DNA of 64,000 bases, taken from the NCBI GenBank assembly GCA_949751835.1, contig CATKHK010000003.1:744001-808000 (forward strand). Reading direction: 5' to 3'. Numbering within the stretch: the stretch's first letter is position 1; each line of letters begins with the position of its first letter. This document shows, one piece after another, positions 27,255-64,000 of the stretch. The position numbers and the translations under genes are program-made. The notes beneath the pieces were generated by a model. The model worked only from the letters and a program-made list of their open reading frames with translations, did no database searches and was not told the origin of the DNA. This DNA is from Blepharisma japonicum (taxonomy: Eukaryota > Ciliophora > Heterotrichea > Heterotrichida > Blepharismidae).

Positions 27255-28484
27255 TTAAGAACGAGATGTCTGGGATCCAGATGGCTGTGAGGTAGAATGA
27301 ATATCAGGAAGCGTTGTATTTAATTCTTGATGAAGCCAGGAATCTTGCAATGCTTCTTTGGCTGTAGGCCGTATATTTGGTAATGGCTCTGTTAATTTTA
27401 AAACAAGCATTGACGCATGTTTTGAGACAGTTTTCCAAGCTGGGTGCTGGAAAGAAAGTTTGCCTTCTCGATTTTTTAGAATTACTTCGGTCATATTTTT
27501 ACCGTTAAACGGCATTCTTCCACTGAGCAAAATGTATAAAATGACTCCGACACTAAATACGTCAGCTTTGGCATCGTAATAGTGTTTCCTCAATATCTCA
27601 GGTGCTATATACCCAGGAGATCCGCACCTTAGACGCAAACCTTCTGTAACCTCTGCTGCTAAGCCGAAGTCAATAATTTTAAAATCATAATCGTTTTCTT
27701 CAGAGACCATAAGAATATTTTCTAGCTTAAGATCTCTATGAACTATATCAAACGAACTCATATAGTCTAAAACTTCAAGAATTTTTTCGGTGAAATGAGC
27801 GGCTGTTCTCTCATTGAACATTTTTTTCTTGACCAATCTTGAATGTAAGTTACCTCCTTCTACATAATCCGTGACTAAGTAGATATGAGATGGATCTTCA
27901 TATACATAATGAAGTTTTACAATGTTTGGATGGTCAAGCATTCTCATAATTTTTATTTCATTAACCACACTGTTAAGACTAGTGGTACTGCTAAGGCTGT
28001 CTTTTTTAATAGCTTTAACTGCATAAGGTTTTGAGTCAAGATTGCTTAAAGCTAAATAGACAACCCCAAAGCTGCCGCTTCCTATCTCTTTTATTATTGA
28101 AAAATCATTATAAAAGTCTGTCATAATACCAACTGGAAGAAGAACGTCTAGTCAGTCATTTAATTTTTCTTCATTTTCTAAATAGAAATCCCGAGAGCAT
28201 CCTCGATGGCCAACTGAAAACCCAAACCTTTCTTTATCACCATTAACCTCTGTAAAAGGCTCAATAATCTTCCAATCCAATAAAGTTATTTTATTAATTG
28301 AATCAGGGATAACCTTTATAAGATAGTTTTGGGTCAATATTAGCTCACAAGATTTGACCGCTCCTTGCTTTGTCTTATAAAAAACTGTGTTTTTAAAGAT
28401 TATGCGGCTATTTTTGTTTTTTTCTGGCTTCCAGAACTTGTGAGATCCTTGAAACTTGTTATTTATGGACTCAAACAGGGACAT
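27255..28484 (-). CDS. PH-like domain plus CAMK-like Ser/Thr kinase (PHK-1)
   Basis: 409 residues from ATG at 28484; one TGA-Trp (NDWLD, residue 111) joins the two halves. Residues 1-118 fit a PH domain: SCELILTQNYLIKV, DWKIIEPFTE, FGFSVGH, RDFYLENEEKLNDW with the typical C-terminal Trp. Kinase from about 127: GSGSFG loop, Lys in AVKAIKK, HRDLKLEN, DFG (as IIDFGLA), GSPGYIAPEIL. Ends in a Ser/Thr/Gln tail after HQELNTTLP. The most conventional glycine loop of the array, and the most diverged in sequence. Likely activated or localised by phosphoinositides, which is inference; substrates unknown. Confidence 0.93.
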
Positions 28485-29212
28485 TTATATTTATTACTGT
28501 CAATAGTTTTCATCAATTTATCAATTTATCGGTGTTTTTGGGGCAGTTTTACAGAGATAATTAAGAAAAGTGATAGAAATTTTAGATATTAAAAATTCTT
28601 TTTTTAAGTAAAATCAACAGAAAGTAAAAAAAAATTTAAAAATTGGTTAATTTCAATTACATAGAAGCAGTTTTTGCCTTCATTAAACAATAGGATTCCT
28701 AATTTTAGGCTCCGATGAGAGAATGAAAGAGATTATTTGTGAAAGAAATAATTCTAAATTTTTTGATTTGTAGATATAGAGGTTAGTTTTATCAAAACTC
28801 AACAATTTTTTAGAACTATAATGCTGAGGAAGAATATAAGTCTGATTTTGTATAGTCGATCTAACATTTTATAATATCCTCATAATGACTAGCATGCAAA
28901 TCATCATATATAACTATGAAAAAAATTGAAATAATAATTAAAAGAAATTTATTAGTTTTTATAGCTTATAAAGACTAGCACAGGCAAAATTTTATAATAA
29001 TGATTTATTTCAATTTAAGCAATTTATTTTACTAAATATAAAATCAAATTTCCTCTTATTAGCAGTGCCTATTTTCTTAATTTTGTACAAATAGATCTTT
29101 AATATATTAACCAACAACTTATAGCATTCTATCAATTTATTTTTACAATTTTATTATAAATTGTGCGTTAATAGATTTTATCATTAAGGGTACTAACTCG
29201 CTTAATTTATCT
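28485..29212. other. Intergenic within kinase array
   Basis: AT-rich spacer, no gene seen. It serves as promoter region for PHK-1 and the 3' flank of PHK-2. Confidence 0.5.
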
Positions 29213-30556
29213 TTATGGTTCAATTTTTTTTTTTTTGTTTATGCTATCAGCTAATTTTTTATTTGAGGAAATAGTATCATTTAGCCCTCGAAGCCATGAA
29301 TCATTCAATGCTTCTTTTGCAAAAGGTCTTAATTTAGGGTTCGGATCCATCAATTTCATAATAAATCTAATCCCTTTTTTAGACACATGCCTTCAATTTT
29401 CATTTTCAAAAGATATAACACCATCTCTATTTTTACGTAGAATTTCTACTGGATTTCTGCCACTGAATGGCATTTTACCTGATAATAATATATAAATAAT
29501 GACTCCGAAACTAAAAATATCAGCTTTGAAATCATAGGATAATTTTCTTAAAATCTCAGGAGCTATATATCCAGGAGAGCCGCATCTTGTTTGCGAGTTC
29601 TCATTTAATTCGACTGCAAGTCCAAAATCAGCTAATTTGAAATCGCAATCGTTATCCTCAGAAGTCATTAGAATGTTTTCTAATTTGATGTCACGGTGAA
29701 CGATATTAAGGGAACTTAAATAGTCAAGCACACTTAATAGTTTCGTAGCAAACCGAGCTACTGTTTTCTCGTCAAATTTTTTCTTTTTGTTAATTCTTGT
29801 AAATAAGTTATCATGCTCTACATAATCAAGAATTAAACATATATGATTTGAGCACTCATAAACATCATGGATTTTAATTATATTAGGGTGGCTGAGTTTT
29901 TTCAGCACCGTAATTTCATTTATGAGATTTTCTAAACCCATCTCATTTTTTACTAAGTTTCCCTTATTAATTGCTTTTACAGCAAATTGTTTTCCTGTAG
30001 AATTATTATTAGCAAGATATACTTTACCAACAGTTCCACATCCAATTTCATTGATTAATGTAAAATCGTCAGTAAAGCTTGTTAATACACAAATTGAAGC
30101 TAAATGATCTTGCATAGTTTTTTTTATAGCCAAAGTTTCTGGGATTGCCTCCCTATATGGGCTTTGCATAATACGAGATCATATTCTATCTTCAATTTTG
30201 CTTAGTAGTAGCAAAGCAGCAAGCCATTCACTAAGCTTTTCTTTATTTTCTAAATAAAATTTTTGAGAAGCTTCATCGTCGCTTATTAAAAACCCAAATA
30301 ATTCTATCTGGCCTATAATTTCTGTAAACGGTTTTATTATTTTTTTATCCAATAAAGCTACTTTATTGGCAGAATTCGGACATATCTTTATTAGATATTT
30401 TTGAGCTAGTGCTAGCTCCCTTGATTTAAAGATCCCTTTTTTGGACTTTAAAAAAACTGTTCCCTGGAAAACAATTTCTATATTGTCAATATTAGCAAAA
30501 TTTCAAAATTTTTTAGATTCTTTGATCTTGGTATTTGTGAACTCAATTGAAAGCAT
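29213..30556 (-). CDS. PH-like domain plus CAMK-like kinase (PHK-2)
   Basis: 447 residues from ATG at 30556 to TAA at 29213, with TGA-Trp codons near residues 18, 128 and in the C-lobe. PH-like part about 1-123 (KSRELALAQKYLIKI, LFGFLISDDEASQKFYLE). A linker of about 45 residues precedes the kinase (from about 175): GCGTVG loop, AVKAINK, HRDIKLEN, ADFG, GSPGYIAPEIL. C-terminus ends in a poly-Lys run coded by a 13-nt A tract, a likely slippage spot. Its kinase core is almost identical to PHK-3, including many silent sites, whereas the N-terminal domain and linker differ. Confidence 0.92.
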
Positions 30557-31447
30557 TTTTTTAATTTTTGTTTTAGAGATTTCATTTCTTAAATATGCAT
30601 ATTTAATCTAGAATAAATTATATTATTCCCATTTTTAAGGAAAAGATAACAGAAAATTAAAAAAAGAGTTAATTTGCTGGACAAGTTCATATAATTTAGT
30701 GTTTTTAATCTTTTAGTCATAACTAGTAAATGCTTTGATTTAATTTGAAAAAATTAAGAATTTTTTTTTAAATAAAATTGAAGAATTTTTGCCTTATAAA
30801 TTAAGAATTCATATTGTTTTAAATAGATATTTGCATAAACATAAAATTTTTATATACTTAGGAAAATTTTTATTTTTAGTAAAAATCCATTTTTTGGCAT
30901 AATTTTTACTAAAGAAGCGATGTTTTTAGCAACAAGGAAGACTATCTATATCAAAGCCCAATACTTTTATAGGACAAAATATCAGAAAATGAGATATTAT
31001 CCCTAATTTAGCATTCAGAGCTTAAAAGATGCCATACTCAGCCTTAAACTTTCATCTTAAATTTTTACTTTATCTAATATATTTATTATGAATATTTGGC
31101 TCAACAAAATTAGCTTACAGTTGAACTCTGATCAGACATGAAATAAAAATACTTAATTTGCAATTAGTTTTATTCTTAATATAGTCTGATTTAAATCAGG
31201 GGATTGAGCTATAAATTGATAACCATAATTATTAATTAAATTAAAATCAGAAGATTGCATATTCAAGTCAGAATAATATGGCAATGATAAAATTTCCTAA
31301 AAAATATTTTTTAGAAATTTTAATATTTTTTCGAAGTTTTGTAATCATACTCCTAACAACCTATAATCTCTATCTATTTAATAATTGCAAATATTTTATA
31401 TCAAATAAATTTAATATTTATCAGCGTTAATTTGCTTAACGCTATCT
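30557..31447. other. Intergenic within kinase array
   Basis: AT-rich spacer, no open frame or fold seen. Sequence just before PHK-2 and PHK-3 starts shows local similarity, as expected of a tandem duplication. Confidence 0.45.
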
Positions 31448-32902
31448 TTACGGTCCAATTTTCATTTTTTTGCTTACACAATCAGATAATTTTTTATTTG
31501 AGAGTTTTTTATCAAAACAAATTGTTTCATTGGTTTCATCTAAACCTTGCTGAAGCCACGGGTCATTCAATAATTCTTTTGCGAATGGTCTTGATTTAGG
31601 ATTCGGATCCATCAATTTCATAATAAATCGAATCCCTTTTTTAGACACATGACTTCAAATTTCATTTCGAAAAGAAATAACACCTTCTAGATTTTTACGT
31701 AGAATTTCTACTGGATTTCTGCCACTGAATGGCATTTTACCTGATAGTAATATATAAATAATTACTCCAAAACTAAAAATATCAGCTTTGAAATCATAGG
31801 ATAATTTTCTTAAAATCTCAGGAGCTATATATCCAGGAGAGCCGCATCTTGTTTGCGAGTTCTCATTTAATTCGGATGCAAGTCCAAAATCAGCTAATTT
31901 GAAATCGTAATCATTATCCTCAGAAGTCATTAGAATGTTTTCTAATTTGATGTCACGGTGAACGATATTAAGGGAACTTAAATAGTCAAGCACACTTAAT
32001 AGTTTCGTAGCAAACCGAGCTACAGTCTTCTCATCAAATGTTTTCTTTCCAATAATTCGTGAAAATAAAGTATCATGCTCGACATAATCAAGGACTAAGC
32101 ATATATGGTTTGTGCAGTCATAAACGTCATGGATTTTAATTATATTAGGGTGATTGAGTTTTCTCATCACCTTAATTTCATTTACAAGATTTTCTAAGCC
32201 CATCTCATTTTTTACTAAGTTCTCCTTATTGATTGCTTTTACAGCAAATTGTTTTCCTGTAGAATTATTATTAGCCAGATATACTTTACCAACAGTTCCA
32301 TGCCCGATTTCGTTCAGTAAAGTAAAGTCGTCAGAAAAACTCGTTAATGCATAAATTGAAGTTAAATAGTCTAGCTTAGTATTTTTGGTCGGCAAAATTT
32401 CTGGAATTGCCTCCTTATACAGATTTTGTATAAGACAAGACTGTTGTCTACCCTCATTTTCTTCTTTAGGAGCCTGATGTTCTTCTGACGCTATCATGGA
32501 TTTTTGAGTATTAGGGTCATCTTTTATTTTGCCCTTAAAATTTTTACTCAACAGCAGCAAAGCAGTTAGCCATTCATTAAGTTTTTCGTCATTTTCAACA
32601 TAAAACTTTTGAGAAGCATCCTCTCCACTTATTAGGAACCCAAATAGTTTTATCTCACCTATAGATTCTGTAAAAGATTTAATTATTTTTTTATCCAATA
32701 AAGCGACTTTATTGGTAGAATTCGGGTTTATCTTTATAAGATAGTTTTGAGCCAGTGCTAACTCACATGATTTAAAGACCCCTTTTTTGGACTTTAGAAA
32801 AATCGTCCCTCGAAAAACCGTTTCTATATGATTGTTATTAACAAACTCTCAAAAATTGCTAGATCCTTGAATCTTGGCACATATATACTCAATTGAAGAC
32901 AT
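31448..32902 (-). CDS. PH-like domain plus CAMK-like kinase (PHK-3)
   Basis: 484 residues from ATG at 32902 to TAA at 31448. PH-like residues 1-123 (SCELALAQNYLIKI, KLFGFLISGEDASQKFYVE). The linker (about 124-205) is longer than in PHK-2 and rich in Glu, Gln and Lys. Kinase: GHGTVG, AVKAINK, HRDIKLEN, ADFG, GSPGYIAPEIL, then RNEIW with TGA-Trp. The core from the glycine loop to KLMDPNPK is nearly the same as PHK-2. Ends KKMKIGP. Confidence 0.92.
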
Positions 32903-33984
32903 TTATTTTTATTACTGATTTTTATTTTTCTAATTGTGGACAATTCTGAGCATTTTTAATTAGTTAATATGCTTGTATTGAGATTAATTCTAAAATTAAT
33001 ATATTAATTTTATTTTTAAGTGATAGAGAACAGAAAATTCAAAAAAAAACGTTATATTGCTTAGCAAAATTTCATGCTGCCGATTATTTTAACTCTTAAG
33101 TTATAGCTATTAAATGCTGTGATTTATTTTTGAGGATAAAAGAAAGATCTATTAAGATAAAAATTTAAGTATTTTTAGCTTATAAATTAAGAATTTATAT
33201 TATTTGAGAAATTTGCATGAAGTTTAAAAAATTTTATATTCTTAGTGAATTTATTTTCTTATTTTAGTAATAATCCATATTCTGATAAAAAAATTTTTAA
33301 AAAATCTAATCAATAAGATCTTTTTAAGTTTATAACTTTTATATTTAATTGAGCTTCTTATATTATTAAATCGGTTCTCAATCTCAAAATTTTTTATTTA
33401 AGAAATTATTTACATGATAAATTTTTAAGAAGCATCTTTCAGAAATAAGGCGTTTTTAGTGCACTCTGGAGACTTAAATATCATGAACTTTTAGTTTTAC
33501 TCTTCTTAAATTAGTAATTATTAGCAAGAAATTTTAAATCTATAAACATAATATTAATTTATATTTCGTTTTCAATTTTTATTTTTTGATGCATTTTCAA
33601 TTAATGTTCGAGAGTGAATTTTTATTAAATAATTTTGTCGAATTTTTTTTTTTAATTTATGGGTTATCAAATCACTCTTTTACAAAAAGTCTTAAATTGG
33701 TGTGGCTTTATATTTATATTAATCAAAAAGTTGACTATAAGGATTTCATATTTACATATCAGAAGACTTGAAAAAATAATAAACCTAGGCTTAAGAATTG
33801 GTTTAGCAACTAGATTTGACTTGCCACCAGAAAGCAACTACTCAAGCCTCCAATTTCTTTGGATAGGAATGAAAATGGATACCAAAATTTTGTACTCACT
33901 ACCCTATTTTTTGGATACATGCTTGCTGAAATTTTATTTTAATATTTCAGCATATAGCTCTGCTTTAAAATTCTTATCCTAGGC
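32903..33984. other. Intergenic within kinase array
   Basis: AT-rich spacer. Frames at 33586-33771 and 33659-33982 are AT-driven and overlap each other; I see no support for them. Confidence 0.5.
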
Positions 33985-34310
33985 TTAAGAAAAGCTCCAT
34001 GCCTGCGTTGGAGTAGGCTTGGCAGCCATGCTAAGGTCTTGATCAGTTTGTCGTACAGTATTAAATTTGTCAGGTTCCTCGCCTTCCTTGTGAGTGTAAC
34101 TTACCTGGAAGACAGGGGAAAAATATCTCTTATGTCATAAAGAACCTTTTGAAGGGTATTACTATAAAACTACATAAATAAGCTATCTGAAACAGCTATA
34201 ACTCATCTCTTTCAGATCGATAATAGATTTAAGTCCCAGGAATATCTCCAGGTGCATTCAAAGTCAAGCAGATGGAATGCTTATAATTCCCTTTGATTTG
34301 TGTTAATGTT
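33985..34310. ncRNA. GC-elevated island: candidate structured RNA (or gene relic)
   Basis: Sharp rise in GC inside AT-rich spacer. Pairing seen: 33995-33999/34009-34013; 34018-34023/34030-34035; a long-range stem 34103-34112/34245-34253 (ACCTGGAAGA/TCTCCAGGT, one bulge) that encloses hairpins 34122-34127/34155-34160 and 34185-34192/34210-34217; then a hairpin 34254-34259/34275-34280. On the plus strand AACTTACCTGG at 34098 equals the U1 snRNA 5' end and GATTTGTG at 34295 resembles an Sm site, but the U1-like end lies in the long stem, which argues against U1. On the minus strand 33985-34158 is an open frame of 57 codons (one TGA) that could be a gene relic. Identity is open. Confidence 0.4.
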
Positions 34311-34543
34311 TATCAGTTTTGAAAAAATTCACACATCATTACTTAGCCCATTTTTATTGATTCAATAAAAATTGATTTTACCTTATTACTCATTTAAATA
34401 ACTATGATCGAATAAAGATTGATTATTATGAAGAAAAAATTTTTAATTATTCAAATTAATTTTATTTTTTACTAAGGAGGAGAAGTGAAAATTTTACAGA
34501 TTTTTCAATTATACTATTTACATTGTTAATTATTTACTGATTT
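34311..34543. other. Intergenic
   Basis: AT-rich 3' flank of PHK-4. Nothing seen. Confidence 0.5.
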
Positions 34544-35803
34544 CTAAAGCTTTGATAGCTTTCTTTGTATACTTATTCTCTCTTCTGCTACTTTTGTTTC
34601 ACTTTTATGTAAATTTTTTGTCTCAGCTATAATTACTCTACTTTCATTAAAAAACTGATGCTTCAACAAATCTCTTGCACAACCTCTACGACAAGGATCT
34701 TTATTCAAAAGCTTAGCCACAAATGCTAAGCAGTTCATTGGAACCTCTCTTCAAATTTTTTCTTCGAAATTTAATTTACACTCTTTATTTTTTACTAGTA
34801 TATCTTGAGTTGTCTTACCAAAAAAGGGCATTTTCCCACTAATTAGAATATATAAAACAATGCCCGCACTGAAAAGATCCGCATTTGTCCCATATGGAAG
34901 CCCATTTATTACTTCAGGAGCAATATACCCTGGGGACCCACATTTTTTGAAGAGGTCTCCTACTACTTCTTCTGCTAGCCCAAAATCAGCTAACTTGAAT
35001 TCATAATCGTTGTGCTCAGAAATCATTAAGATATTTTCTAATTTAATATCTCTATGTACAATACCTAATGAGTGAAGATATTCAAGAACCTCCATTAGCT
35101 TAAGGCTTAGCTTGACTATTGTTTCCATAGTAAATCTTTTCTTTTTTATTATTCTTGTAAACATGCATCCTCCTTTAACGAAGTCTTCTACTAAGTATAT
35201 ATGAGTATTACTTTCATAAACTCTTTGTAATTTTACTATATTTGGGTGAATGCATTTTCTCATAATTTTTATTTCGTTTATCATAGAGTTTAGTAGTTCG
35301 GAATCTCTTAAAAAACGCTCTTTTTTTATAGCCTTTATAGCATATTTTTCTAAATCTTCGTTGCTCTCTGCAAGGAAAACTTGAGCGCATTTACCTGTCC
35401 CAATCAGTTTTATAAATTCATAGTCATCTTCGATGTCTGTTTTTATGCACAGGCTGGATAATTTTTCGATTCAGCTATCTAAGAATTTAACATCAGACAC
35501 ATAGAAATCTCTAGAGTGTTGACCATGGCCTAACCTAAAACCATAATGGCAGTCCGTTTCATCATGCTCAACAAAAGGCTCGAGGATCTTTCACTCAATC
35601 GGGACCATTTTTTTAGGTGACGAACTCCAATTTATTAAGAATTTTGGAGTCAAGGTATATTCTCCTTCTTTTAGAATTTTCTGCTTAGATCTCTCATATA
35701 ATTTGCCTCTGAAAATCTCACAAAGGTCAGTGTGATCATATGGCATCCAAAAATTCCAAATCCCTTGAGCTTGGTGGTCAGCAATTTCAAATATTGTGTT
35801 CAT
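34544..35803 (-). CDS. PH-like domain plus CAMK-like kinase (PHK-4)
   Basis: 419 residues from ATG at 35803 to TAG at 34544; the frame is open to 35851, but MNTIFEIADHQAQ aligns with the starts of PHK-5 to PHK-7. PH-like 1-117: GKLYERSKQK, YTLTPKFLI, then a TGA-Trp before KILEPFVE, YGFRLGHGQHSRDFYV. Kinase from about 129: glycine loop reads GTGKCA (third Gly replaced), AIKAIKK, HRDIKLEN, ADFG, GSPGYIAPEV. C-lobe joined by a TGA-Trp (EEKIWREVP). Tail rich in Lys/Glu. Catalytic residues intact. Confidence 0.92.
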
Positions 35804-38211
35804 AAATTTATTATTAGAATAGAACCACTGTAAAGAAGAGTTATTTACCACTAAAAATGGTTGGAATGCAGCTAGTTATGAAAAATTATAAGAGAATAAT
35901 TAAATAAATTTTGCTTTTTTTTTTGCTAGCTTCTTAAGTAAAGAATATGAGGTTAATGCAAATTAATAATTTATTTTATTATTTTCTAATTTAGAACTTT
36001 TGATAAAAAACCTTTATGATTCTTTTCTCTTAGCTCACTACAATATTATTTTAACAATTTAATTCACAACGGCTGTCTTGATCACTGCCTGATTTGAAAA
36101 TTTTTATTAGTCTTATTTATGGTAAATTCAAAAGCAAGCCATTTTCCCAAAAATTGGGAAAATTTTTATTACTTTAGAAATTGCAATAAGATTAAGGCTA
36201 GACTTTAAGAGTTAAAATATGCTTTTCTATCAAGTATTTATTATTGCTTGTGAGAGAAAAGCCATAATTATCAATTGCAAGCCGGACACATAGGCATTCA
36301 ATTCTATTCGAACGCCAATACGCTGGGACTCACTTTTAATTTCCTATGAGAAGCAATAAGCAGTAGCCATAAATAGACTAAGCTTTCATCATCAGGATGA
36401 TTATAGCAAATTGAAATTAATGTACCAGCAGCAACAGATCGACATTTTTAATCAGTAATACTAGATAGTGTTTTATTAAAAGTCACATAAGCAATTTTAT
36501 ATTTTGTTTATTAACACCACGTGGCAGCTAATCTCAAATTAGGTGATCAAGCCATTTTTTCTGTCTAAATTATATTATTTAATTAGCAAACCCATTTCAT
36601 ATCAGTGAATTATCATAATATGCAAAGAATTAATTTTAAAAGAGAAAATTCACACAGGAGTATTTTTTTTGCTTTCTAAAAGTTTAATAATATGGAATCA
36701 GCATATTTCTAAAAGTTGCTTATTCATGTGCTAATCTATTAAGAGAAAATCTCTTTTGCTGAATTAATAAAGCATTTTAGGTAACTAAAATAATGCCATC
36801 TCAAAAAGAATAAAATTTTTTATTAGCAATGTGGCCTGATTACAGCTAGTATGCAATTTAAGAGTATTTGATTATTAGGTATCAACTAGAAACCTAAATA
36901 GCTGATTGAGTCATAAAGCTTGCAGTTAATCTTTATAAATTTATTATTCTCCATGCCTACATCCACATTATGGCATAAAAGTCATGCATATTATTCAAAT
37001 GTAGGCTTATTTTAAAATTTAAATAAAAGTAAGTTCAAATTATTCACCAAGCTTCCAATTTACCCTTTTGATATAAATATGACTTTTGATGTCATTATGA
37101 TAGCACTTTATGACAAAAAATATAAATTATTATTGAAAGATTAACTGATTTTTTTGGCGCATAATGCCAAATAAAATCTAATTTAGCATTAAAATTTGAA
37201 TACTTTTATATAAGCTTAGAATCTTTTATACAATAATAGCTCACTTAAAGTTGTAAAAGGGATATTTGAAATTGTTTCACTTATGGATGATAGATCTTAA
37301 AAATTTCAAAATTAAGATTGTAATTAGAAAGAGTTAGCAGCAGTTAAGCCGAGCATAATAATAAATTGAGTCTATTATATATTATAGTAATATACTATTG
37401 CACTATAGCTTCTAAAATTAATGTTGAAATTCTATCTCATTATATTATTATGATGATTTAGATTACCTCACAATAGTGGCTATATAAAACATTGATGGTA
37501 TATTTTCTGGAACTATTTGTGTACCCTGGACACTCAAATAATTGGCTTTGCGATCTAATTTTCGATTCCTTTAATACAGTCAAGGCTCTGCTCTTGCGTT
37601 TATCAACGATTTTGATCTCCACTACTGCAGCAATCTATAATTCTCAATTATGATATAGGTATAACAAACATTTCGAGAGTCCTGTATAAAAAATAAAAGC
37701 TTCAGATTTATATTTTTTAAAATTTTATGATATTAAGGTTTAAGATCTTTTAAATCTTAGATAATAAAAAAATACCTACTAAGAAAGCTAAATTCTGAAG
37801 TTAAAATTTGCAGAGGAAAAAACTTATAAATATTTTTTGTCACAAAGTTTATTTTAAAATATTTATTTTGGCTCAATTTATCTGATTTGGGCTATTTTTG
37901 TTAAAATTTAGAACTCAACTATGAATTTACAAAGATGCAGCTTAAGTTTCATAACCCGCAAATTCATATTTAATTAGCAATCTATGTAGATGAGTCATCT
38001 TTTCTAGAAGCTTTTTTGATTTCTCTTAAATTAATATGGCAATATTTATTGTGTTTGAAATTTCTAGAAATTCACTAAATAATTACAAATACTAAATAAA
38101 ATATTATCACAGCAATCAAGCTTATCTTGCCCAATAAAATTCGAAAAAATATGAAATATTATTCTATAAAATCTTAATTACACTACTTCCTTATATATTT
38201 TCGTGTTTTCT
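35804..38211. other. Long intergenic region (2.4 kb) with two GC-elevated patches
   Basis: No supported gene. Patch 1 (about 36,250-36,450): less AT-rich, with hairpin GGCATTC...GAACGCC at 36293-36316 and TCATC/GATGA near 36,390. Patch 2 (about 37,458-37,690): on the minus strand an open frame of 58 codons (37458-37634, no TGA) without ATG start or acceptable splice site. The rest is AT-rich. Either patch may be a small RNA gene or a gene fragment; I cannot tell. Confidence 0.4.
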
Positions 38212-39396
38212 TTATTTTCTCATTTTTAAGCTGATTTCAGACAGCCATGGGTGACTTAACATATCTCTTGCAGTGCTTCTACAATTTTGATCTTTTTGTA
38301 CAAGTCTTGCTACGAATCTTAAACAGTTTTGAGGAACATAGTTTCAGATAAGTTCATGGAAGTTTATTTTGCAATCTCTATTTTTGGATAATATATCTTT
38401 AGAAGTCTTCCCATTAAATGGCATTTTCCCAGATATTAAAATATAAAGTATGATTCCAAAACTGAAAACATCTACCTTAGTCCCATATGGAATTCCTTGT
38501 AGTATTTCAGGAGCAATATAGCCTGGAGACCCACATTTTTTGTGGAGATTACCTGCTACTTCTTCTGAAAGTCCAAAATCAGCAAGTTTAAATTCATAAT
38601 CATTGTCTTCTGAGACCATCAAAATGTTTTCAAGCTTAATGTCTCTATGTACAATATTTATGGAATCGAGATATTCCAGCACCTCCATAAATCTGAAGCT
38701 TAATTTTAATATCGTTTCATCATCAAATTTTTTCTTTTTAATTATCCTAGTGAACAAGTCTCCCCCTTCCACATAGTCTATTACTAAATACACGTGGGTG
38801 TCGCTTTCATAGACTCTGTGAAGTTTAGCTATATTTGGATGGCTGCATTTTCTCATATTTTTTATTTCATTGATTAATAAATCAACAAATTCTTGATTTT
38901 CTAGAAGGTAACTTTTTTTGATTGACTTTATAGCGAATTTTTTCATATCTCCAAATCTTTGTGCAAGAAAAATCTTTGCTGATCTACCTTTGCCTATTGG
39001 TTTTATAAAGTCATAATCGTCTTCTATATCTGTCATTATGCAGACTTTAGACAACTTTTCAATCCATTTCTCTAAAGATTTGACGTCAAAAACATAAAAA
39101 TCTTTATAGTTTCCTTTGTGGCCTAATCTAAAGCCATAACGAATTTCTGCTTTATTTTCTTCAATAAATGGATCAACAATTTTTCACTCAATTGGGGTCA
39201 CTTTTTGTCTTCCTGGCTTAGTTTTCACTAGAAATTTCTCTGTTAAGCTGAAAAATTTCTTCTTAAGACTTTTTGGCTTAGATAATGTATATAAATGGCT
39301 GCTAAAGATCTCCTTATCATATTTCTCTTGGCATTGACTCCAAAACTCTAAATTTTGCTGCGTTTTTCTGTCTACGCTTTCAAAAACTGAATTCAT
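38212..39396 (-). CDS. PH-like domain plus CAMK-like kinase (PHK-5)
   Basis: 394 residues from ATG at 39396 (MNSVFESVDRK) to TAA at 38212. PH-like 1-115 with TGA-Trp before KIVDPFIEE, then YGFRLGHKGNYKDFYVFD and EKWIEKL. Kinase from about 120: GKGRSA loop, AIKSIKK, HRDIKLENILMVS, ADFGLSEEV, GSPGYIAPEIL. The C-lobe continues past a TGA-Trp (HELIWNYVP) to SLKMRK. The parent of the pseudogene at 42340-43085; its upstream flank was copied as well. Confidence 0.92.
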
Positions 39397-40193: not shown

Positions 40194-41429
40194 TTAGAAC
40201 TTTACTTTCTTTCTTATTTCATCGTCACACAAGTTTAAGTTATCGATTTCTTCAATATCAAACTTATTTCTAGAAAACCATGGATGATTCAAGAGATCTC
40301 TTATGCTAGCTCTAAAATCTTGATTTCTTTGAAGAAGACTAGACACAAAGGATAAGCAATCCTTTGTAACACTCTTCCAAATATGATCATGGAAAACTAT
40401 TTTACAGTCTTTATTTTTTAATAAAATATCATGAGCCGTTTTCCCTCCAAAAGGCATTTTCCCGGTGAATAAAATAAATAACACAACTCCAGCGCTAAAT
40501 AGGTCAGCCTTTGCTCCGTATGGAATTCCGTTTAGTATCTCTGGCGCAACATAGCCAGGAGACCCACACTTTTTGTGGAGAAATCCTAAGGCCTCTTCTG
40601 CTAGTCCAAAATCAGCTAATTTGAAATCATAGTCATTGTCCTCACAAATCATTAAAATATTTTCAAGCTTTATATCTCTATGAATAATATTTAATGAATC
40701 TAGATAGCTAAGGACACTTATAAGTCTGTAACTCAGCTGAATTATCGTTTTTTCTGCGAACCTTTTTCTTTTTAAAGCTCTCATTAAGAGATCTCCTCCT
40801 TCCGCATATTCTAAAACTAAATAAACGTGAGTTTCGCCCTCATATACTCTGTGAAGTTTTATAATATTTGGATGGTTGCATTGCCTCATAATTTTAATTT
40901 CGTTGATCAAGTTGCTCATAATTTCCGGATTTTCAGCTAAATTCTTCTTAGCAATAGCTTTAATTGCGTATTGTTTATTGTCATTAATGCTTTCTGCTAG
41001 AAAAATCTGAGCAGATTGGCCTTTTCCAATTGGTTTTATAAAATAATAGTCATTTTCTATATCTGTCCTTATGCATATGCCAGACAATTTTTCAATTCAA
41101 TTTTCCAGACTTTTTGTGTCAGGCACGTAAAAGTCTTTCATATGACCACTATGGCCAAGCCTAAACCCATAGAGGGCATTATTTTCGCTTTTCTCAATAA
41201 AAGGCTCCATGGCCTTCCATTCAAGAGGAACCATTTTTTGGGTAGTTTTGCCTAATTTTATGAGAAATTTTGAAGTCAAACTATAGTTGCCCTCTTTTGG
41301 CATTTTTGACTTAGATACACTAAACAATTGGCCATTGCATATTTTGCTTTCCCCATTTTGGATATTGGGCATCCAAAATTTATAAGTTCCTTGGACTAGA
41401 CTATCAATACTTTCGAATACTGAGCTCAT
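40194..41429 (-). CDS. PH-like domain plus CAMK-like kinase (PHK-6)
   Basis: 411 residues from ATG at 41429 (MSSVFESIDSLVQ) to TAA at 40194. PH-like 1-115: GQLFSVSKSK, YSLTSKFLIK, EWKAMEPFIE (Trp as TGG), YGFRLGHSGHMKDFYV, then TGA-Trp in ENWIEKL. Kinase from about 125: GKGQSA loop, AIKAIAKK, HRDIKLEN, ADFGLAEE, GSPGYVAPEIL. Intact C-terminus FDIEEIDNLNLCDDEIRKKVKF. Closest relative is PHK-7, created by the block duplication. Confidence 0.93.
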
Positions 41430-42339: not shown

Positions 42340-43085
42340 TACTTAGTTCCCTATAGTGGTATTCCAGGAATGTATAGCCTTCACCCTCAATTTTGGTGGA
42401 GATCATCTGCTGCTTCTTTAGAATGCCAAATTTAAATTCATAATTGTCCTTTAAGACAATCAGGATATTTCAGCACCTCTATAGATCGTAGCTTATTTAA
42501 ATATATATTCGTCGCCTCTTTTTTGCTTTTCATTATCCTTGTAAACAAGTCTCCTTTTTCGTCATATTCTAAGACTAAATGCACAAAAATCTTGATCTAT
42601 AAACTCTGTATATTGTTGCTATGTTTTGATGGCTGTATTTCTAATATTTTTTATTTAATTGATTAATAAAATCAACAAATTCTGAATTTTCTTAAATGTG
42701 ATTTTTTTTTATTGATTTAAGGCGAATTTTTTCATATCTTCAACACTTTCTAAAAGAAAAATTTTTCCTGATCTACCTTTTCTTATTGATTTTCTAAGGC
42801 TGTAATTGCCTCCTTAGTCAGTTATTATGCAAAATTTAGATGATTCTCTATCAATTTTTTGAAAGATTTAAGTCAAAAACATAAAAATCTTATGTTTAGT
42901 CTAAAGCCATAGACAAATTTCTTCAATAATAGGATTAACAACTTTTCACTCATATAGGACCATTTTTTATATGTCTAGCATATTTTTCACTCGAAATTTT
43001 CTGTTAATCTGAGAACTTTGACTTAGCCACAAAACTATAAATTTTACGGCCGTTTTCGATCTGAGTTTTCAAAATCTGAATTCGT
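42340..43085 (-). pseudogene. Decayed PH-kinase copy (from PHK-5)
   Basis: Minus-strand sequence that still aligns with PHK-5 but has no usable frame. The former start is ACG (43083-43085) in place of ATG, many small deletions shift the frame, several stops occur, and the last about 90 residues of the kinase are missing (alignment fades near 42340). Recognisable pieces include the PH segment, the region around the activation loop (GGAGATCATCTGCTGCTTCTT, antisense of the LAEEV area, is divergent) and the shared upstream flank. Host gene relic made by segmental duplication. Confidence 0.85.
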
Positions 43086-43643: not shown

Positions 43644-44843
43644 TTATTTTATGTCCTTCATTTCTTCTAATTTAAATTCACTTTCAAAAAGTCATGGGTG
43701 GCTCAAAAGGTCACTTGCGCTAGCTCTAAAATTTTGATCTCTTTGGAGAAGGCCAGACACAAAGGATAAGCAATTCTTTGTAGCACTCTTCCAAATATTA
43801 TCATGGAAAGCTATTATACAGTTTTTGTTTTTTAATAAAATATCATGAGTCGTCTTTCCTCCAAATGGCATTTTCCCAGCGAATAAAATATACAACACAA
43901 CTCCAGCGCTGAACAGATCTACTTTAGTTCCATATGGAAATCCGTTTATTATTTCAGGCGCAATATAGCCAGGAGACCCACACTTTTTGTGAAGAAATCC
44001 AATGACCTCCTCTGCTAACCCAAAATCAGCTAATTTGAAGTCGTAGTCATTGTCCTCAGAGACCATTAAAATATTTTCAAGCTTTATATCTCTGTGGGCG
44101 ATATTCAATGAATCTAAATAATTAAGAACGTTTATCAGCCTATAGCTAAGCTGAAGTAGCGCTTCTTCAGTGAACCTTTTTCTTTTTAAAATTCTTGTAT
44201 AAAGGTCTCCTCCTTCTGCATAATCTACGACTAGGTAAATATGAGTTCCACTCTCATAAACTCTGTGAAGTTTTATAATATTTGGATGGTTGCACTGCCT
44301 CATAATTTTAATTTCATTGATCAAGTTGCTCAGAATCTCTGGATTTTCAACTAAATTCTTTTTAATCAGTGTTTTAATTGCGTATTGCTTATTGTCATTT
44401 ATGCCTTCTGCTAGAAAAATCTGAGCAGATTGACCTTTTCCAATTGGTTTTATAAAATAATAGTCATTTTCTATATCTGTCATTATGCATATGCTAGACA
44501 ATTTTTCAATTCAATTTTCAAGACTTTTTGTGTCAGGCACGTAAAAGTCTTTCATATGGCCAGTATGGCCCAGCCTGAAACCGTAGCGGGTATCTTTATT
44601 GCTTTCTTCAATAAAAGGCTCCATAACCTTCCATTCAAGAGGAACCATTTTTTGGGTAGCCTGTTTTGATTTTATTAGGAATTTTGAGGTCAAACTGTAA
44701 TTACCTTCCTCTAGAAATTTTGACTTGCAAACCCTATACAAATTGCCGTTGTATATATAATTTTCCCCATTTTGGACAATGGGCATCCAAAATTTATAAG
44801 TACCTTGGACAAGGCTGTCAACATTTTCGAATACTGAGTTCAT
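43644..44843 (-). CDS. PH-like domain plus CAMK-like kinase (PHK-7), shortened C-terminus
   Basis: 399 residues from ATG at 44843 (MNSVFENVDSLVQ; another ATG directly precedes it). PH-like and kinase parts follow PHK-6 closely: EWKVMEPFIEE (TGG), ENWIEKL (TGA), GKGQSA loop, AIKTLIKK, HRDIKLEN, ADFGLAEE, GSPGYIAPEI. The frame meets TAA at 43644-43646 after EEMKDIK, but the next codons still read SLDEIRRKLKF, matching the PHK-6 end DDEIRKKVKF, so the stop is a recent change removing about 11 residues. The catalytic core is complete, so the enzyme may work. IVHRD is IAHRD here. Confidence 0.9.
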
Positions 44844-46089
44844 CATATTATAAGTTATAAATAAATTACTGTTCCAAAAACCTATTAATTCAGAAAATGG
44901 CAAAAAATAAAATAATTTAGACATAAGATTCTTATATTATATAATTTGACTAAAATGGTGACTTGGAACTGAATTTAGGATTTCTTTAAAATATTTAAAT
45001 CAAAATGGACGATTGCCTATTCAAAAAGTTCATGAAATGAAGCCACACAATAGTTAACTTTATTATTATTAAATAGAATTTTCTGGAAATCCATTTTTAT
45101 TCAGAATTTTCTAAAATTGATTATACCCGAAATGAAACACTTAAATAAGTAGAGTCTTAAATGGAATCTAATTTTAATTCTAATGGATTCTCACAAGCAT
45201 AATTTGAGTTTTTATCTGTTACAATCGAGTTGCTTTAATAATTGATGCTTATAGTTAGGCTGCTGAAAAAAGAAATAGTTGGCATTTTAATAGAATTTTA
45301 AACAGGCAATTACCAGTGCGTAGTTCCCTTTTAAAAAATAGAACAAAAATTCTTAGAGATTGCAAATTATTTTTTAATCGAATTATTTCTAAATCTGTTC
45401 AGAATGATACTAAACTTCTTTTGTGCTTTATTTTATAAAAATGGGCAACTTCTTTATTGATCTAAGCTCAGCTCAGGCAACTTTAGTTAATATTAGTAAA
45501 TTTATATATTAAGTTTTTGTCTTTTAATTATTTGCATTTTAGTTTTTTTTTGGGAGCGCAACAATTTGAAATTCTAGAATGACAGATTATTATCTATATC
45601 TGACTACTAATAATATTTTGTCTATTGATATATTATCGAACCTTTATTATTCAAATAAATACAAAAACCAATTTTTTTTAATTTAAAAGACTTAAAAAAT
45701 GAACTGATTATTTATCAACTATATCAAACTGATAAGATGAAATATTTAAGAAAGCTGTAATATATTTAAAAAAAATGAAATTCATATTTAATTCCTTTAT
45801 ATATTAAGATCAGAAACATTGAAGCTCCATTTAATATTGGTTTATTCAGAATAATTTTTAACAAAATTAAAAAGTAAATAGAATTATTTTTAAAAGTGGC
45901 GCATAAAAATAAAAGATTAATATAAAAATAGTAATTTGTGCCTCAGTTTATATAGATAGATAAAATTTAATAAAAAGCATGCATAACCTAAATAAAAAAT
46001 ATTGAATAATTTTGCAGCAAAGAGTTTAAGATTACAATAAATATCATTCATATAGAGTTATTTATTACTCAAATGCTTTTAAGTCAAAA
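44844..46089. other. Intergenic, divergent promoter region, 1.2 kb
   Basis: AT-rich. Short stretches just upstream of PHK-7 recall the PHK-6 upstream flank. No gene or RNA-like fold found. Confidence 0.45.
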
Positions 46090-50938: not shown

Positions 50939-51196
50939 TTTTGCAATAATTTCATTATATATAATTTTACTGATTATTATATAAGCATTATAACAACGAA
51001 AAGAATTTTATTTTATAATTTTTACGATTGATAATTCCAGGCTACATTATTTTTAAAAAATTGTAATAAATAAGTTGTACTTTTTGGCTATAAAATTAAA
51101 TGATTTTCTATCTATTCATTTAATTACCGTTTAGACTGCAATATAAAAATTCGTTTATAACTGGAACTTTAATTAAACTCCATAATTACTTATCAG
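50939..51196. other. Short AT-rich spacer
   Basis: Spacer between two tandem ABCG genes; no feature seen. Confidence 0.5.
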
Positions 51197-54064: not shown

Positions 54065-54244
54065 AATATTGTATTCTCAATAAATAACTTTATGATTGAT
54101 TTCCAAAATTAATTCCTACTTATTGACCATATTGAATAAAGTTTGAATTTTAAGCCTACTTCTTTTGATGTAATGCAAAAAATTACTTATCTTTCATCTT
54201 ATAAGTCCTAAATCTTTATTATATCTTCAAATTATGCCAATTTA
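54065..54244. other. Short AT-rich spacer
   Basis: Promoter-sized gap before the next plus-strand gene; nothing seen. Confidence 0.4.
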
Positions 54245-55078: not shown

Positions 55079-55329
55079 TTTTATCATACTTAAATTTGAT
55101 TTTAAGGTAATTTATTCCATTTATCAAGAAAAACAAATGTTTAATTTCCATGCGAAATTAGGCCGGATATAATGCATATTATTTTTGTGGTTATTCTTTG
55201 TCAGAAGTTACTAGCTTTATAGCTTTATTTATACAGCTCTAATTTAGGATTTTATCTATTATAAGATATCTTCCAAAAGGGTTTAAATAATTTTTATTTG
55301 TAATATTAATTATTAATTATATATCATTT

Positions 55330-56658
55330 TTACAATAGCTCAACTATGGCAACCAGATCATTGTCGGAATACCTTCTTTTTACATCTGGGTTCTCTATTT
55401 CAAGTAAGCCATTTGCATCAGAAACAGTCTGTGATTTTTTTATAGAATACACCCTTCTTGATCTTTCTTTAACCCTTCTAAAATGCGTTAAATTAAATTT
55501 AAGCCATGGATGATCTAAAGCTTCCTTTACGGTCAACCTCTGACTTGGATTAATTATCGTCAGTTTACTAACCATATCTATTGCTCCTTGTGAAATAATT
55601 TGCCAATATTTTCCTTGAAATGAAATTTTTCCTTCTCTGTTATTTCTTATTTTTTCAGCCAATGTTCTACCTGGAAATGCAGGGTTTCCAGTTAACAGTC
55701 CATAAAGTACTATTCCAATGCTAAAAATATCGACTTTATTATCATAGGAATTTTGGCTGAAAATCTCTGGGGCAGTATATCCTGGTGTCCCACATTTTTT
55801 GGACAACTGATAGCTATTTTCACAGGCTAATCCAAAATCAGCCAATTTAAAGTCTATATCATTGTCTTCAGATATCATAAGAATGTTTTCAAGCTTAATA
55901 TCTCTATGTACAATCCCTAAGGAATGTAAATAGTCAACAGCATTTAAAAGCTTGACAATAATTTCAGCAGCTTTTTTTTCTGAATATCGATGAATTTTAT
56001 TTATTCTTTCTAATAAATTGCCACCACTTATGTATTCTAGTATAAGAAACACACAAGTTTCAGATTCATATACTTTGTGGAGCTTGACGATATTGGGATG
56101 ATTGAGATTTCTCATCATACTTATTTCATTCACTAGACTAGTAATACTATTGTGTGGAGTATTGTCTAGTGATTTAGGGCATATTTTGATTGCATACTTT
56201 GTTTTAGTTTCTCTATCTTCTGCTAAAAAAACTTGCCCATGAGCTCCTTTTCCGATTTCTTTTATAAAATGGAAATCATTTGTAACATCAGTCATAATAC
56301 CGACCAAAGAAAGATGTCTGAGCCACTGATCGAGTAGATCAGAAGATTCAACATAAAAATCTCTATAGACAGATCCCTGCCCTATCCGAAAGACATGAGT
56401 CAGCCCTGTTAAGTTTTCTTCAACAAAGGCTTCAATTAATTTTCATTTTATACTTGCTTGTTTAATACTTTTGCCCTTTTGATATTTTAAAAGATTTTCT
56501 TCTGTGAGGGCAAGCGTTATTGGTACAAGCCGAGAGTTATCAATAAGTTCCCATACAGAACTTTCAAAAATTATTCTGTGTGTAATCTGGGTGCTTTTGC
56601 ACCAAAATCTTTTTGAGATTCTGTCATCGCTATCAATTTCGCGAAAAATCGATTCCAT
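55330..56658 (-). CDS. PH-like domain plus CAMK-like kinase (PHK-8)
   Basis: 442 residues from ATG at 56658 (MESIFREIDSDDR) to TAA at 55330. PH-like 1-118; the conserved Trp before KLIEAFVEE is TGA, then RIGQGSVYRDFYVESSDLLDQWL. Kinase from about 127: GKGAHG loop, AIKICPK, HRDIKLEN, ADFGLACE, CGTPGYTAPEIF. A longer C-terminal tail (about 60 residues) is basic, with ERSRRVYSIKKSQT. Separated from the main array by about 10 kb of other genes, and less like the others in the activation loop (GTPGY instead of GSPGY). Confidence 0.93.
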
Positions 56659-58146: not shown

Positions 58147-60366
58147 ATGGAAAACTTAAATCCCTATGAAACTAATGATCATAACCCTACAATTTTAACA
58201 ACTATTGAATGCAAGGCTTTGCAAATCCCCAAAAAGCGAGGATTCAGAAGTTTCTTAAAGTTCATTTCAAAGGACATGGAAAAATCGTTTCAATACCTGA
58301 TGATTAGCGAAGAGAAGCATATGTACAAAGTGTCTGAAAACTTAGGGGAAAAACTGCTTGATTATTTATGAAGTTATTATGCTTTGTGCTTAGTATATCT
58401 ACTTATTTATATAATTTCATATGTAGAGGATGATTCTTCATCAAGTAGCTTGACTTGCCAGATTTCGTTAATTTGTGGTCAAATGATCATAAACTCTTTG
58501 ATTTATTGGCTTGGATTTTCAACGAATATTTTTAGAATTTTGAGAATTCAAGTTTTGTCATTTTCTTATATCATATTAGGAACTGCTTTGATACTTAATA
58601 ATGGGCCGGTTCAAGCGTGAATGCTTGACGAGAAATCTGAGACATATTTTTCATGCCTGCCCGGCCTTTTAGTCCTTTTAACAATATCACAGTTTATAAC
58701 ACATTTCAGCTTTGCTAATTATTTCAGAGATAATGCCATCATCGCATCAATTTATATTGTGCTTCATCTTTTCTCTGATCAAAAACTTGCTGTTACACTA
58801 TTTGAATTTGGGATTTTCGTCTTAAGGATTTTATTCGAAACGCGAAAATTTTACATCAAAGAACTTACATTACGTCACAGATTTTACAATAAGCAGGCAT
58901 GAAGTGAAAAAGTTGTGGACTCAGCAAGATCAGAACCACAAACAGAAATTGAAGGAATTACTGAATTTTTGTGTGAGTGTTTAACACTCGCGAAATCTTT
59001 GAAGCATAGCCCAAATGAAATTGAAGATAAAGCTACATTGATTGCTGAGCGAGTTAAAAAAGTCCTTCAAGTTTTGAAATCCAAAGCAAATATCTATACT
59101 CCGAATATTGAAGTAATTACAAGAAATATGACTGAAGAAGACAAATTATTTGTAAAACAAACGATTATTGAAACTTCAGGTAAAGAAGTCTCGTCATCTA
59201 AGACAAAAATTAAAAAAAGAGACACTGATAGGATAAAGCTGATAACAAAAACTTATAATTTCCAAGAATTAGAAGGCATATTAAAACAGCTTGGAAATAA
59301 TTGAAATTTCGATATGTTTTTCTTAAAAGACTGCTCAAATGGAAAGCCTCTAGCGACTATTGGTAAATATTGTATAGATAAATATGTCCTAGATGAGCTG
59401 CTTAGTGTGAATGAAAATATCATCGCAAACTTTTTCGATAGGCTTGAATCTCAATATAATGAAAATCCTTATCATAACTCTACACATGGGGCCGATGTTC
59501 TTGCCTCTGTGATGTATTTTATTAAAAAATCAGCTTTATCTGAACTTTTAGCTGATATCGACCTCTTAGCTGTAATTGTAGCTACCCTTGGACATGATGT
59601 AGGCCATCCTGGCCTCACAAATCGTTTCCTCATTAATAATCATGATACTCTTGCTATAGAATATAACGACATTTCAGTGCTAGAAATGATGCACAGCTCA
59701 TCAATTTTTATTATCATGAAAGCACTTGATGCTGATATTTTCCAAAATTTATCAGCAGAAAACTATACAACTGTCAGAAAATTAATTATAGAAATGGTCT
59801 TAGGCACTGATATGAGCAAACATTGGGATTTCCTCACAACTTTTAAAGCAAAAAATGTCAATGGACATTTGAAAAAATTAGAAACAGCAGACGAAAAAAT
59901 TGATGTGCTAAAGATTATTGTTAAGAGTGCAGATATTGGCCACTCCGCTAAATCTCAAGATTTGCATAAAAAATGAAGCTTTTTAGTCATTGAAGAATTT
60001 TTCAACCAAGGGGATATCGAGAAGCTAAAAAATTTACCAATATCGATGTATTGTGACAGAAATAACACTGATATTCCAAAATCTCAGATAGGGTTTATTA
60101 AAAATATTGTGCTCCCGCTATATGAAGTTATGTCAAGTTATTTAGCTTCTGATTCAATTGAAGAAAATTGTGTCAAGGAAATACAAAATAATTTGGTGAT
60201 GTGGGAAAATGAAACTTTTGCGATACGATGCAAAACAATGGTGCCTGCGAATGAAACACTGGTAGTAGAAAGGCTAGATGTAGAAAGCCCTGGAGAGAGG
60301 AAAACTAGGAGGTATGGGACTTCACGTGCTTTACTTGATCCTACGAAAATTTCGTGGGAAGATTAA
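58147..60366 (+). CDS. Membrane class I cyclic-nucleotide phosphodiesterase
   Basis: 739 residues from ATG at 58147, with five TGA-Trp codons joining the pieces. The frame is open upstream to 58099 (MIRILIFTLF), but that stretch is AT-rich like a leader, so the later ATG was preferred. Residues about 75-235 hold several membrane helices; then comes a coiled linker and the PDE domain (about 385-720). HD-type metal residues are present: YHNSTHGADV near 441, GHDVGHPGLTN near 482, and SADIGHS near 594 with the metal Asp. It hydrolyses cAMP and/or cGMP; specificity cannot be told. It fits with the many cyclic-nucleotide signalling proteins of ciliates. Ends ISWED. Confidence 0.93.
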
Positions 60367-62382: not shown

Positions 62383-63663
62383 ATGCAGTCCATATTTGCA
62401 GAGGCAGACACCACTCTTCACAATGGCAAAAATTTTTGAATTCCTTATAACCAAGCGTGCTTGCCTATTATTTATGAAGGCTATCTAACAGAGATAACTG
62501 AGATCGGCCCTGCTATGAATTACTACCTATTGAATAAGCATTATTTACTTAAGCTAAATAAAGGCTCAATTATTGTCGAAAGAATGACGATCCTTAAATG
62601 GAAAAGGGTTACACCCTTCAGAGATAACAGAGAAAACCCTAAATATGGGTTCAAACTTGGCCACAATGACAATTATAGGATATTTTACGTAAATAGCGAG
62701 GAAGAGCTGGACATATGAATCAATGCGCTAAGTTTTGTAGGAATAATTGACAACATAGAAAAAGATTATTCAATGGTCAGAGAAATCGGAAAAGGGTCAT
62801 TTGCAAGAGTGTTTTTAGGCATTGAAAACTCCAGCTCTCACGAATTCGCTATTAAGTGTTTTAATAAGATGGACTTGTGAAACAGAAAAAATGGCATTAA
62901 GCATTTACTGAATGAAATAGATGTCATGAGAAAACTCGACCACCCCAATATACTCAAGCTATTTAGGGTATATGAAGACTGCGATAAAGTGTATCTAGTC
63001 TTAGAGTATGCTGAAGGTGGGGATCTTAGAAAAAGACTATCTGAATGCAAAAAATATCCTGAAGAAGCAGCGATCAAATTTATTCAAAAACTATTGAGGG
63101 TTGTTGATTATATGAAATCTCTTAATATAGTGCACAAAGACATCAAGCTAGAAAACATTCTTTTAACGAGCCCTAGTGACAATAGTAATTTTAAACTCGC
63201 TGACTTTGGACTTGCCAGCGAATGTGAAGGCTATCTTGAAGGAAAATGTGGGTCATTAGGCTACGTAGCTCCTGAGATCCTCTGAGGAATGAAATATAGC
63301 TTCAATGTTGATGTCTTCAGCACTGGAATCGTGTTTTTTGCCCTCATCGCTGGCCGAAGTCCATTTTATGGGAAAAATGCCAACGAGATTTACCTTAAAA
63401 ACCTGAACTGTAATATTCAATTCAACGAAAAGTGTTGAATAAATATTAAAATTCCAACAATTAACATGATCCAAAAACTCACAAATAAAGACCCGTCTTT
63501 CAGGCCTCTTGCGAAGCATGCATTAAGAAACGCTTTATTTGAGGAAGTAGATAGTGATTATAACTATCAAATCAATTTATCGCCTTTGACGTATTTATTG
63601 ACCAAACAAAGCAATGAAAAAAGTTGGCTTGAAATTAAAGAAGACCTAAACTGTTTAATTTAA
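62383..63663 (+). CDS. PH-like domain plus CAMK-like kinase (PHK-9), atypical catalytic loop
   Basis: 426 residues from ATG at 62383 (MQSIFAEADTT); five TGA-Trp codons. PH-like 1-118: GYLTEITEIG, YYLLNKHYLLKL, LKWKRVTPF (TGG), YGFKLGHNDNYRIFYVNSEEELDIW. Kinase from about 130: GKGSFA loop, AIKCFNK, ADFGLASE, GSLGYVAPEIL (where others have GSPGY). The catalytic loop reads VHKDIKLEN, so the HRD Arg is Lys. The Asp base and DFG are kept, so activity is possible but RD-type regulation of the activation loop is probably lost. It lies on the opposite strand to the main array. Confidence 0.92.
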
Positions 63664-63845
63664 AATACAAAGCTTTTAGATAACTTTTTAGGACTGCTAA
63701 TAATTTTTAAGAAAAATGGAATTAATTAATATAAATTTTGGCAATTATTGTTCAGTAAATCAATATATTTTTAAAATTCGTAATTTTTTCTACTCAACAG
63801 TGAAAACAGTTATTTTATAATGTCAGAAATATTGCAATAAAAAAA
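63664..63845. other. Short AT-rich spacer
   Basis: Gap between two tandem PH-kinase genes; nothing seen. Confidence 0.4.
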
Positions 63846-64000
63846 ATGTTTAAAGAATCCGATATAAAATCGCGTAAGGAAGAACATGAATTTTGGTCGT
63901 TATACTTCTCAACTGGCAATGATGCCAGATATAGTGGCAGACTTTTTGAACGATCCAGGTCAGGGGTGTTAAAAGAGCGCTGCTTTCAGCTGACCAGCCA
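63846..64000 (+). CDS. PH-kinase family gene, 5' part only (PHK-10)
   Basis: From ATG at 63846 the frame stays open to the window edge (51 codons): MFKESDIKSRKEEHEFWSLY, then YSGRLFERSRSGVLKERCFQLTS. This is the start of the PH-like domain seen in PHK-1 to PHK-9 (F-x-E-x-D, then F-W, a G-x-L-x-x-x-S strand and a strand like YSLTSKFLIK). The kinase part is expected beyond the window. The family therefore continues downstream. Confidence 0.7.
   Translation, partial: MFKESDIKSRKEEHEFWSLYFSTGNDARYSGRLFERSRSGVLKERCFQLTS

Follow-up and report, generated by a model that had tools for sequence, protein, structure and literature searches.

A genome-wide family of PH-domain kinases with CDPK/CaMK-like catalytic domains and no detected EF-hands in the ciliate Blepharisma japonicum

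Kinases that carry a PH domain beside a catalytic domain of the CAMK group are already known from apicomplexan CDPK7, from Phytophthora and from protein kinase D (PKD), and PH kinases are also known from Tetrahymena. In the CDPK7 proteins of Apicomplexa (TgCDPK7, PfCDPK7 and SnCDPK7), the PH domain adjoins and precedes a C-terminal CAMK-type kinase (PMC7909640, PMC5371900), and, according to a review, it is CDPK7 that stands nearest to PKD1/2 among the apicomplexan kinases (PMC10543664). Phytophthora infestans encodes two CAMK-group kinases with a PH domain, PITG_06259 and PITG_08008, and in PITG_08008 this domain lies between N-terminal EF-hands and the catalytic domain (PMC3019232). In PKD (PKD1-3 and DKF-1), a PH domain is followed by a CAMK-group kinase and has been proposed to be autoinhibitory (PMC6768651). 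Twelve PH kinases, TtPHK1-12, have been reported from Tetrahymena, with PHK2, 5, 10 and 12 being of the Akt or PDK1 types, and an ankyrin-PH layout occurs in Akt-like kinases of Tetrahymena and Paramecium (PMC3823935). Here, we describe a 64,000-nt stretch of the Blepharisma japonicum genome (assembly GCA_949751835.1, contig CATKHK010000003.1, positions 744,001 to 808,000 of the forward strand; hereafter the window, numbered from its first letter) that holds a cluster of genes joining a PH domain to a CDPK/CaMK-like kinase. A preliminary description of the window had called the family uncommon and perhaps specific to heterotrichs; the layout itself is already published for the CDPK7, Phytophthora and PKD proteins. 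What is distinctive here is that no EF-hands are detected, that an N-terminal Phe-Trp pair is invariant, and the copy number.

All genes were read with translation code 4, in which TGA encodes Trp. The window contains nine complete PH-kinase genes (K1-K9), each a single frame of 394-484 residues, the nine lying where the preliminary description had placed them, together with one gene cut by the window edge and one pseudogene (Table 1). As it had also stated, seven of the genes (K1-K7) run in one direction over 17.6 kb, on the minus strand from 27,255 to 44,846. Members of this family of serine/threonine kinases begin with a short helix ending in Phe-Trp (the FW cap), which is followed by the PH domain, then by a kinase of CDPK/CaMK type and last by a variable tail; Phe17 and Trp18 are invariant in all 69 members examined. 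In the 60 members fetched from elsewhere in the genome, no more than about 85 residues separate the beginning of the PH match from that of the stop-to-stop frame. The PH domain immediately precedes the kinase, as had been described, except in K2 and K3, where long inserts separate the two domains.

The predicted structure of K1 residues 1-122 contains seven strands and a C-terminal helix (mean predicted local distance difference test score (pLDDT) 83). Among the best 50 of 865 rows of a Foldseek search with this domain, most entries were PH-bearing proteins at probability 1.00, including dynamin, Exo84, Slm1, BTK and PLEKHA7, and the E-values were modest (best 1.5e-4; four at or below 0.001). 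The Pfam PH model matched 27 of the 69 family members at E <= 0.01 (best 6.3e-9), and a separate genome search with PF00169 scored above the curated cut-off at 13 family loci. Profile searches thus recovered the earlier PH assignment across the family but hardly within the window, where K9 was the only one of the nine proteins to match at E <= 1 (E 0.0023, below the curated cut-off). The fold prediction and Foldseek agree with each other on a PH-type N-terminus, and together with Pfam they settle the predicted domain as PH.

The catalytic domain was recognized by the Pfam Pkinase model in all nine window proteins at E <= 1e-62. The solved structures closest to the full-length profile were CDPK1 and CaMKI, and the PDB matches were CDPK, CaMK, DCLK, DAPK and MARK kinases with no AKT among them (best 60 of 106 matches); the K1 model was structurally nearest to CDPKs and CaMKII (among the best 50 rows listed). 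By this ranking among matches, the kinase is CDPK/CaMK-like, and the CAMK-like class proposed earlier holds for both sequence and structure. Lys157, Glu176, His249, Asn256 and Asp272 are kept in all 69 members and Asp251 in 68, the exception being L041. At the eleven motif positions, other departures occur in K9, L041, L054, L060, L076 and L086, and L075 is gapped at one position, where its frame stops. The activation loop has a Ser or Thr at -2 or -3 from Cys287 in 41 of 67 members.

Neither EF-hand families nor C1 families were found among the Pfam matches of the 69 members at E <= 0.01. The AGC hydrophobic motif, searched as the regular expression F..F[STDE][YF], was present in none of the 69 tails, in agreement with the missing AGC tail of the preliminary description; kinase class and tail together led us to reject an AKT-like identity. 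Of the 28 nearest kinases that are not themselves PH-kinases, at least 21 have an EF-hand pair within 1.5 kb downstream, as counted over 28 consecutive ranked kinase rows (excluding L092, L095 and the family itself) with 44 rows of the at least 150 EF-hand places in the genome, so most of the near relatives are ordinary CDPKs. In the same neighbour count, L066 was the sole family gene with an EF-hand place within 4.5 kb, and this place is on the opposite strand.

PH-domain searches with K1 and K9 returned 70 places combined, nine of them the window genes. Sixty of the 61 further places fetched have a PH domain and a kinase in the expected order; the remaining one, L091 (C76:81497), has no kinase and was dropped. 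We examined 69 members, and the 70th (C19:702-1853) is known from its coordinates only. Two divergent members used as queries returned 66 and 71 places, comprising the same set plus three and two weak extras, respectively. The PH searches made put the family close to saturation, at 70 genes; these are intact genes, because decayed copies like that of the window did not surface in the searches. A kinase at C75:228380-229015, near a contig end and without an adjoining PH place, was left uncounted. Two members are interrupted, L075 by about 200 bases within the kinase and L083 by a 15-base insert only. The 69 members lie on 31 contigs, 44 of them forming 12 clusters when gaps of up to 15 kb are allowed, and the window cluster is the largest local group, having 10 intact genes at this spacing limit. 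With at least 70 genes in the genome and such a spread, the local expansion of the preliminary description is not borne out in that form, and a purely local expansion was rejected. Nineteen more PH places that were fetched included seven PH-kinases of other build: five whose N-terminal region is longer (L092-L095 and L105), one with EF-hand, PH and kinase (L107) and one with ankyrin, PH and kinase (L109). One scan of viral_contigs with K7 gave 14 pattern matches, with no relative among them.

We propose, as a reading that has an even chance of being correct, that the family is built on a CDPK-type kinase without EF-hands in which the PH domain and FW cap replaced calcium as the input, and in which the PH end diverged more. 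The EF-hand calcium-sensing module of the CDPK-type ancestor would have been lost or never acquired, and the PH domain, together with the FW cap, would have become the regulatory and targeting input. By analogy with the proposal for PKD, the PH domain would presumably hold the kinase, or place it, until ligand binding. The copies would have diverged afterwards, with more change in the PH part than in the catalytic part.

The shared history of the two domains was examined by distances and by a tree of 76 proteins (413 columns), in which the start used for L105 excludes its PH domain, so that this protein was placed by its kinase only. PH and kinase distances correlate with a Mantel r of 0.64, which none of 2000 permutations reached (67 members here and in the nearest-relative test below, L075 and L083 being excluded). 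This correlation indicates that the pair was inherited together; separate PH fusions onto different kinases were rejected, since the distance correlation favours one joint history. The family as one clade was not rejected by the approximately unbiased (AU) test (p 0.085), and the free tree draws the long-branched L109 (the ankyrin-PH kinase, branch 3.85) inside the family. Mean pairwise identity is 32% for the PH domain and 47% for the kinase. In all 12 chosen pairs, the ratio of nonsynonymous to synonymous divergence (dN/dS) is 0.04-0.35 in both domains, and it is higher in the PH domain than in the kinase in nine of them. In these pairs, both domains appear to be under constraint.

These data bear on two other explanations. 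First, the PH domain and FW cap might be a ligand-free structural part of the kinase, acting as a fixed brace, an autoinhibitor or a dimer contact. The invariant Phe17 and Trp18, the confident full-length K1 model (pLDDT 85, predicted template modelling score (pTM) 0.83), the co-evolution of the two domains and the proposed autoinhibition of PKD by its own PH domain (PMC6768651) would all fit this explanation, but the faster evolution of the PH domain is not required of a rigid internal brace, and we regard it as quite unlikely. Second, the array might be a by-product of tandem duplication that has little functional meaning, with most copies heading to decay. It does contain one decayed copy, 17 of the 67 members have their nearest kinase relative no more than 20 kb away (as many in none of 2000 permutations), and L041 is without the catalytic Asp251. 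However, the low dN/dS in every chosen pair, the intact catalytic residues of nearly all members and the spread over 31 contigs make this explanation highly improbable.

To what the PH domain would respond can be approached from its basic residues. PH positions 44 and 46, which we take to correspond to K26 and R28 of BTK by strand position, form a strict basic pair in 25 of the 69 members, deep-branching L079 and L086 included. The pair occurs in 20 of the 33 members outside the clade of the window genes and in only 5 of the 36 inside it (Fisher p 6e-5, kinship ignored), and it is present in three of the ten intact genes lying or starting in the window, K2, K5 and the edge gene. A looser pattern, K-x(3,12)-[KR]-x-[KR], is found in 21 of the 69 members. 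The net charge of the PH domain ranges from -9 to +10 across the whole family. Judged from these residues, canonical lipid recruitment is plausible in the older branches. For the window clade, a protein or an atypical lipid is tentatively favoured as the PH ligand over a canonical PIP2/PIP3 head-group because the strict basic signature is mostly lost there. Alternatively, all members might behave as CDPK7 does, with the PH domain binding phosphatidylinositol 4-phosphate (PI4P) or phosphatidylinositol 4,5-bisphosphate (PI(4,5)P2) and bringing the kinase to the membrane, and with no special diversification. TgCDPK7 interacts with PI4P and PI(4,5)P2, and phosphoinositide (PIP) binding by the PH domain matters for the localisation of PfCDPK7 (PMC7909640). 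The 25 members with the strict pair, the nine window-clade members among those with the looser pattern, and the net-positive PH domains of some window genes (K5, for instance, at +8) are in keeping with such a role, against which stand the scarcity of the strict pair in the window clade and the wide variation in charge. We consider this alternative possible but doubtful.

Several points weigh against the proposal of a CDPK-type kinase with a PH input and against the ligand preference for the window clade. Descent from a CDPK is read from the ranking of matches and not from a tree with outgroups, and a family member, L076 (C1:312621), itself ranks among the CDPK-like kinases. The orientation of the PH domain relative to the kinase is that of the full-length prediction (pTM 0.83). 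The synonymous divergence (dS) exceeds 1.5 in several pairs, where dN/dS is rough, and the faster divergence of the PH domain could be mere relaxation. With the looser basic pattern, the contrast between 12 of 33 members outside and 9 of 36 inside the window clade is nearly gone. The match to the lipid-contacting residues of BTK and AKT was made by strand position rather than on a superposed complex. Support for the window clade of 36 is 94/93, short of the starred level, and the free tree places L109 in it as well. A more far-reaching reading is that of an intracellular array in which about 70 diverging PH inputs feed one conserved calcium-kinase output, with the window-clade PH domains as paralogue-specific sensors of proteins or other ligands, the FW cap holding the PH domain against the kinase, and an ancestral PH domain that bound lipid. 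We think this rather unlikely; if true, such a sensor array would be a calcium-independent signalling system on a CDPK chassis.

The family has grown by tandem and partial block duplication. The window contig (C3) and contig C8 are collinear in reverse order for five kinase pairs and a phosphodiesterase-like gene. In the tree, K1 groups with L031-L034 (support 93/73), three of which are on C8 and one, L034, on C99; the other partners on C8 are L041 for K2/K3, L070 for K8, L051 for K9 and L039 for the edge gene. For the order test, one C8 partner was chosen for K1 and one for K2/K3. The best copy of the phosphodiesterase-like gene, which lies between K8 and K9, is 73% identical and occupies the matching place at C8:392056-394272. 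This gene belongs to a large family with 61 matches at E <= 1e-10 in the genome. A whole-genome duplication was considered, and only a partial block duplication is put forward. Against a simple block copy, several neighbours and K4-K7 break the C3-C8 pattern: the nearest relatives of K4-K7 are on C160 and C30, and the best copies of the neighbouring citrate synthase and histidine kinase genes are on C22 and C61, respectively. The neighbouring RING gene has no copy in the genome at E <= 1e-10, and no single C3 partner corresponds to L037, L045 or L058 of C8.

Elsewhere in the genome, adjacent pairs of family genes have adjacent relatives at C160:4.8-7.5 kb with C30:44.9-47.4 kb and at C63:44-48 kb with C80:134-137 kb, which suggests further block duplications. 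Within single gene pairs, the synonymous divergence can differ between the domains: it is 0.55 in the PH domain and 0.23 in the kinase of K2/K3, and 0.10 and 0.32, respectively, in L073/L077 on C8. Local gene conversion may account for these mismatches.

Table 1. PH-kinase genes of the window and the gene marking the duplicated block (window positions).
Feature	Position	Strand	Description
K1	27255..28484	-	FW cap, PH and CAMK-type kinase, 409 residues; structure models made
K2	29213..30556	-	FW cap, PH and kinase; insert separates PH from kinase
K3	31448..32902	-	FW cap, PH and kinase; PH-kinase insert longer than that of K2
K4	34544..35803	-	PH-kinase
K5	38212..39396	-	PH-kinase
K6	40194..41429	-	PH-kinase
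Decayed PH-kinase copy	about 42453..43008	-	Nearest to K5; coding signal in several frames, with stops
K7	43644..44846	-	PH-kinase
K8	55330..56658	-	PH-kinase; closest relative L070 on contig C8
Phosphodiesterase-like gene	58147..60366	+	Non-member, named from protein reading; marks duplicated block
K9	62383..63663	+	PH-kinase; closest relative L051 on contig C8
Edge gene L054	63846..64000	+	Runs on to about C3:809003; 386 residues in total

TGA is read as Trp because conserved Trp columns use it. The codon of the invariant Trp18 is TGG in 49 members and TGA in 20, and TGA makes up 146 of the 375 Trp codons in the 69 family genes. From the letters of the gene, the 15-base GT...AG insert of L083 is a putative intron. 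The somatic genome of B. stoltei (41 Mbp) also uses UGA for Trp and has introns mainly of 15-16 bp (PMC9942806).

Among the other genes of the window, whose identities come from reading of the proteins, a membrane hybrid histidine-kinase-like gene lies at 25016-27205; its relatives account for 62 match rows in the genome, several of them in tight arrays on C15, C46, C75, C81 and C97. Two ABCG-like half-transporter genes form a tandem pair (48929-50938 and 51173-53065), followed by the C-terminal remnant of a third ABCG-like gene (53708-54112).

What sets the expanded kinase copies of ciliates apart is, to our knowledge, mostly unexplained. Ciliates have unusually many kinase genes, with CAMK1, CAMKL and CDPK among the prominent expansions (PMC3341644). 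In the available main text of the B. stoltei genome paper, no word starting with 'kinase' occurs (PMC9942806), and a term search of the available text of three further papers found no mention of the PH domain (PMC9371601, PMC10946202, PMC3239843). The present family, with its catalytic half more constant than its PH half and with calcium-sensor kinases remaining in the genome for comparison, is a tractable case for how a calcium kinase gains a new input.

Compared with the known systems, the family shares with AKT/PKB the order of an N-terminal PH domain and then a kinase. AKT/PKB belongs to the AGC kinases and bears a hydrophobic motif in its tail, whereas the present kinases are CDPK/CaMK-like and lack the hydrophobic motif. 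The TtPHK set of Tetrahymena is about six times smaller, and the layout of L109 resembles that of the ankyrin-PH Akt-like kinases of other ciliates. In PKD, the PH domain comes after a ubiquitin-like domain and two C1 domains, and C1 was not found by Pfam here. Phytophthora infestans has two such genes as against about 70. CDPK7, like the window family, has its PH domain directly before a CAMK-type kinase. TgCDPK7 differs in that a pair of EF-hands at the N-terminus and a long linker come ahead of the PH domain, and L107 fits this layout better than the window family does. CDPK7 is known as one gene per genome, in contrast to the approximately 70 copies of the PH-kinase family in B. japonicum.

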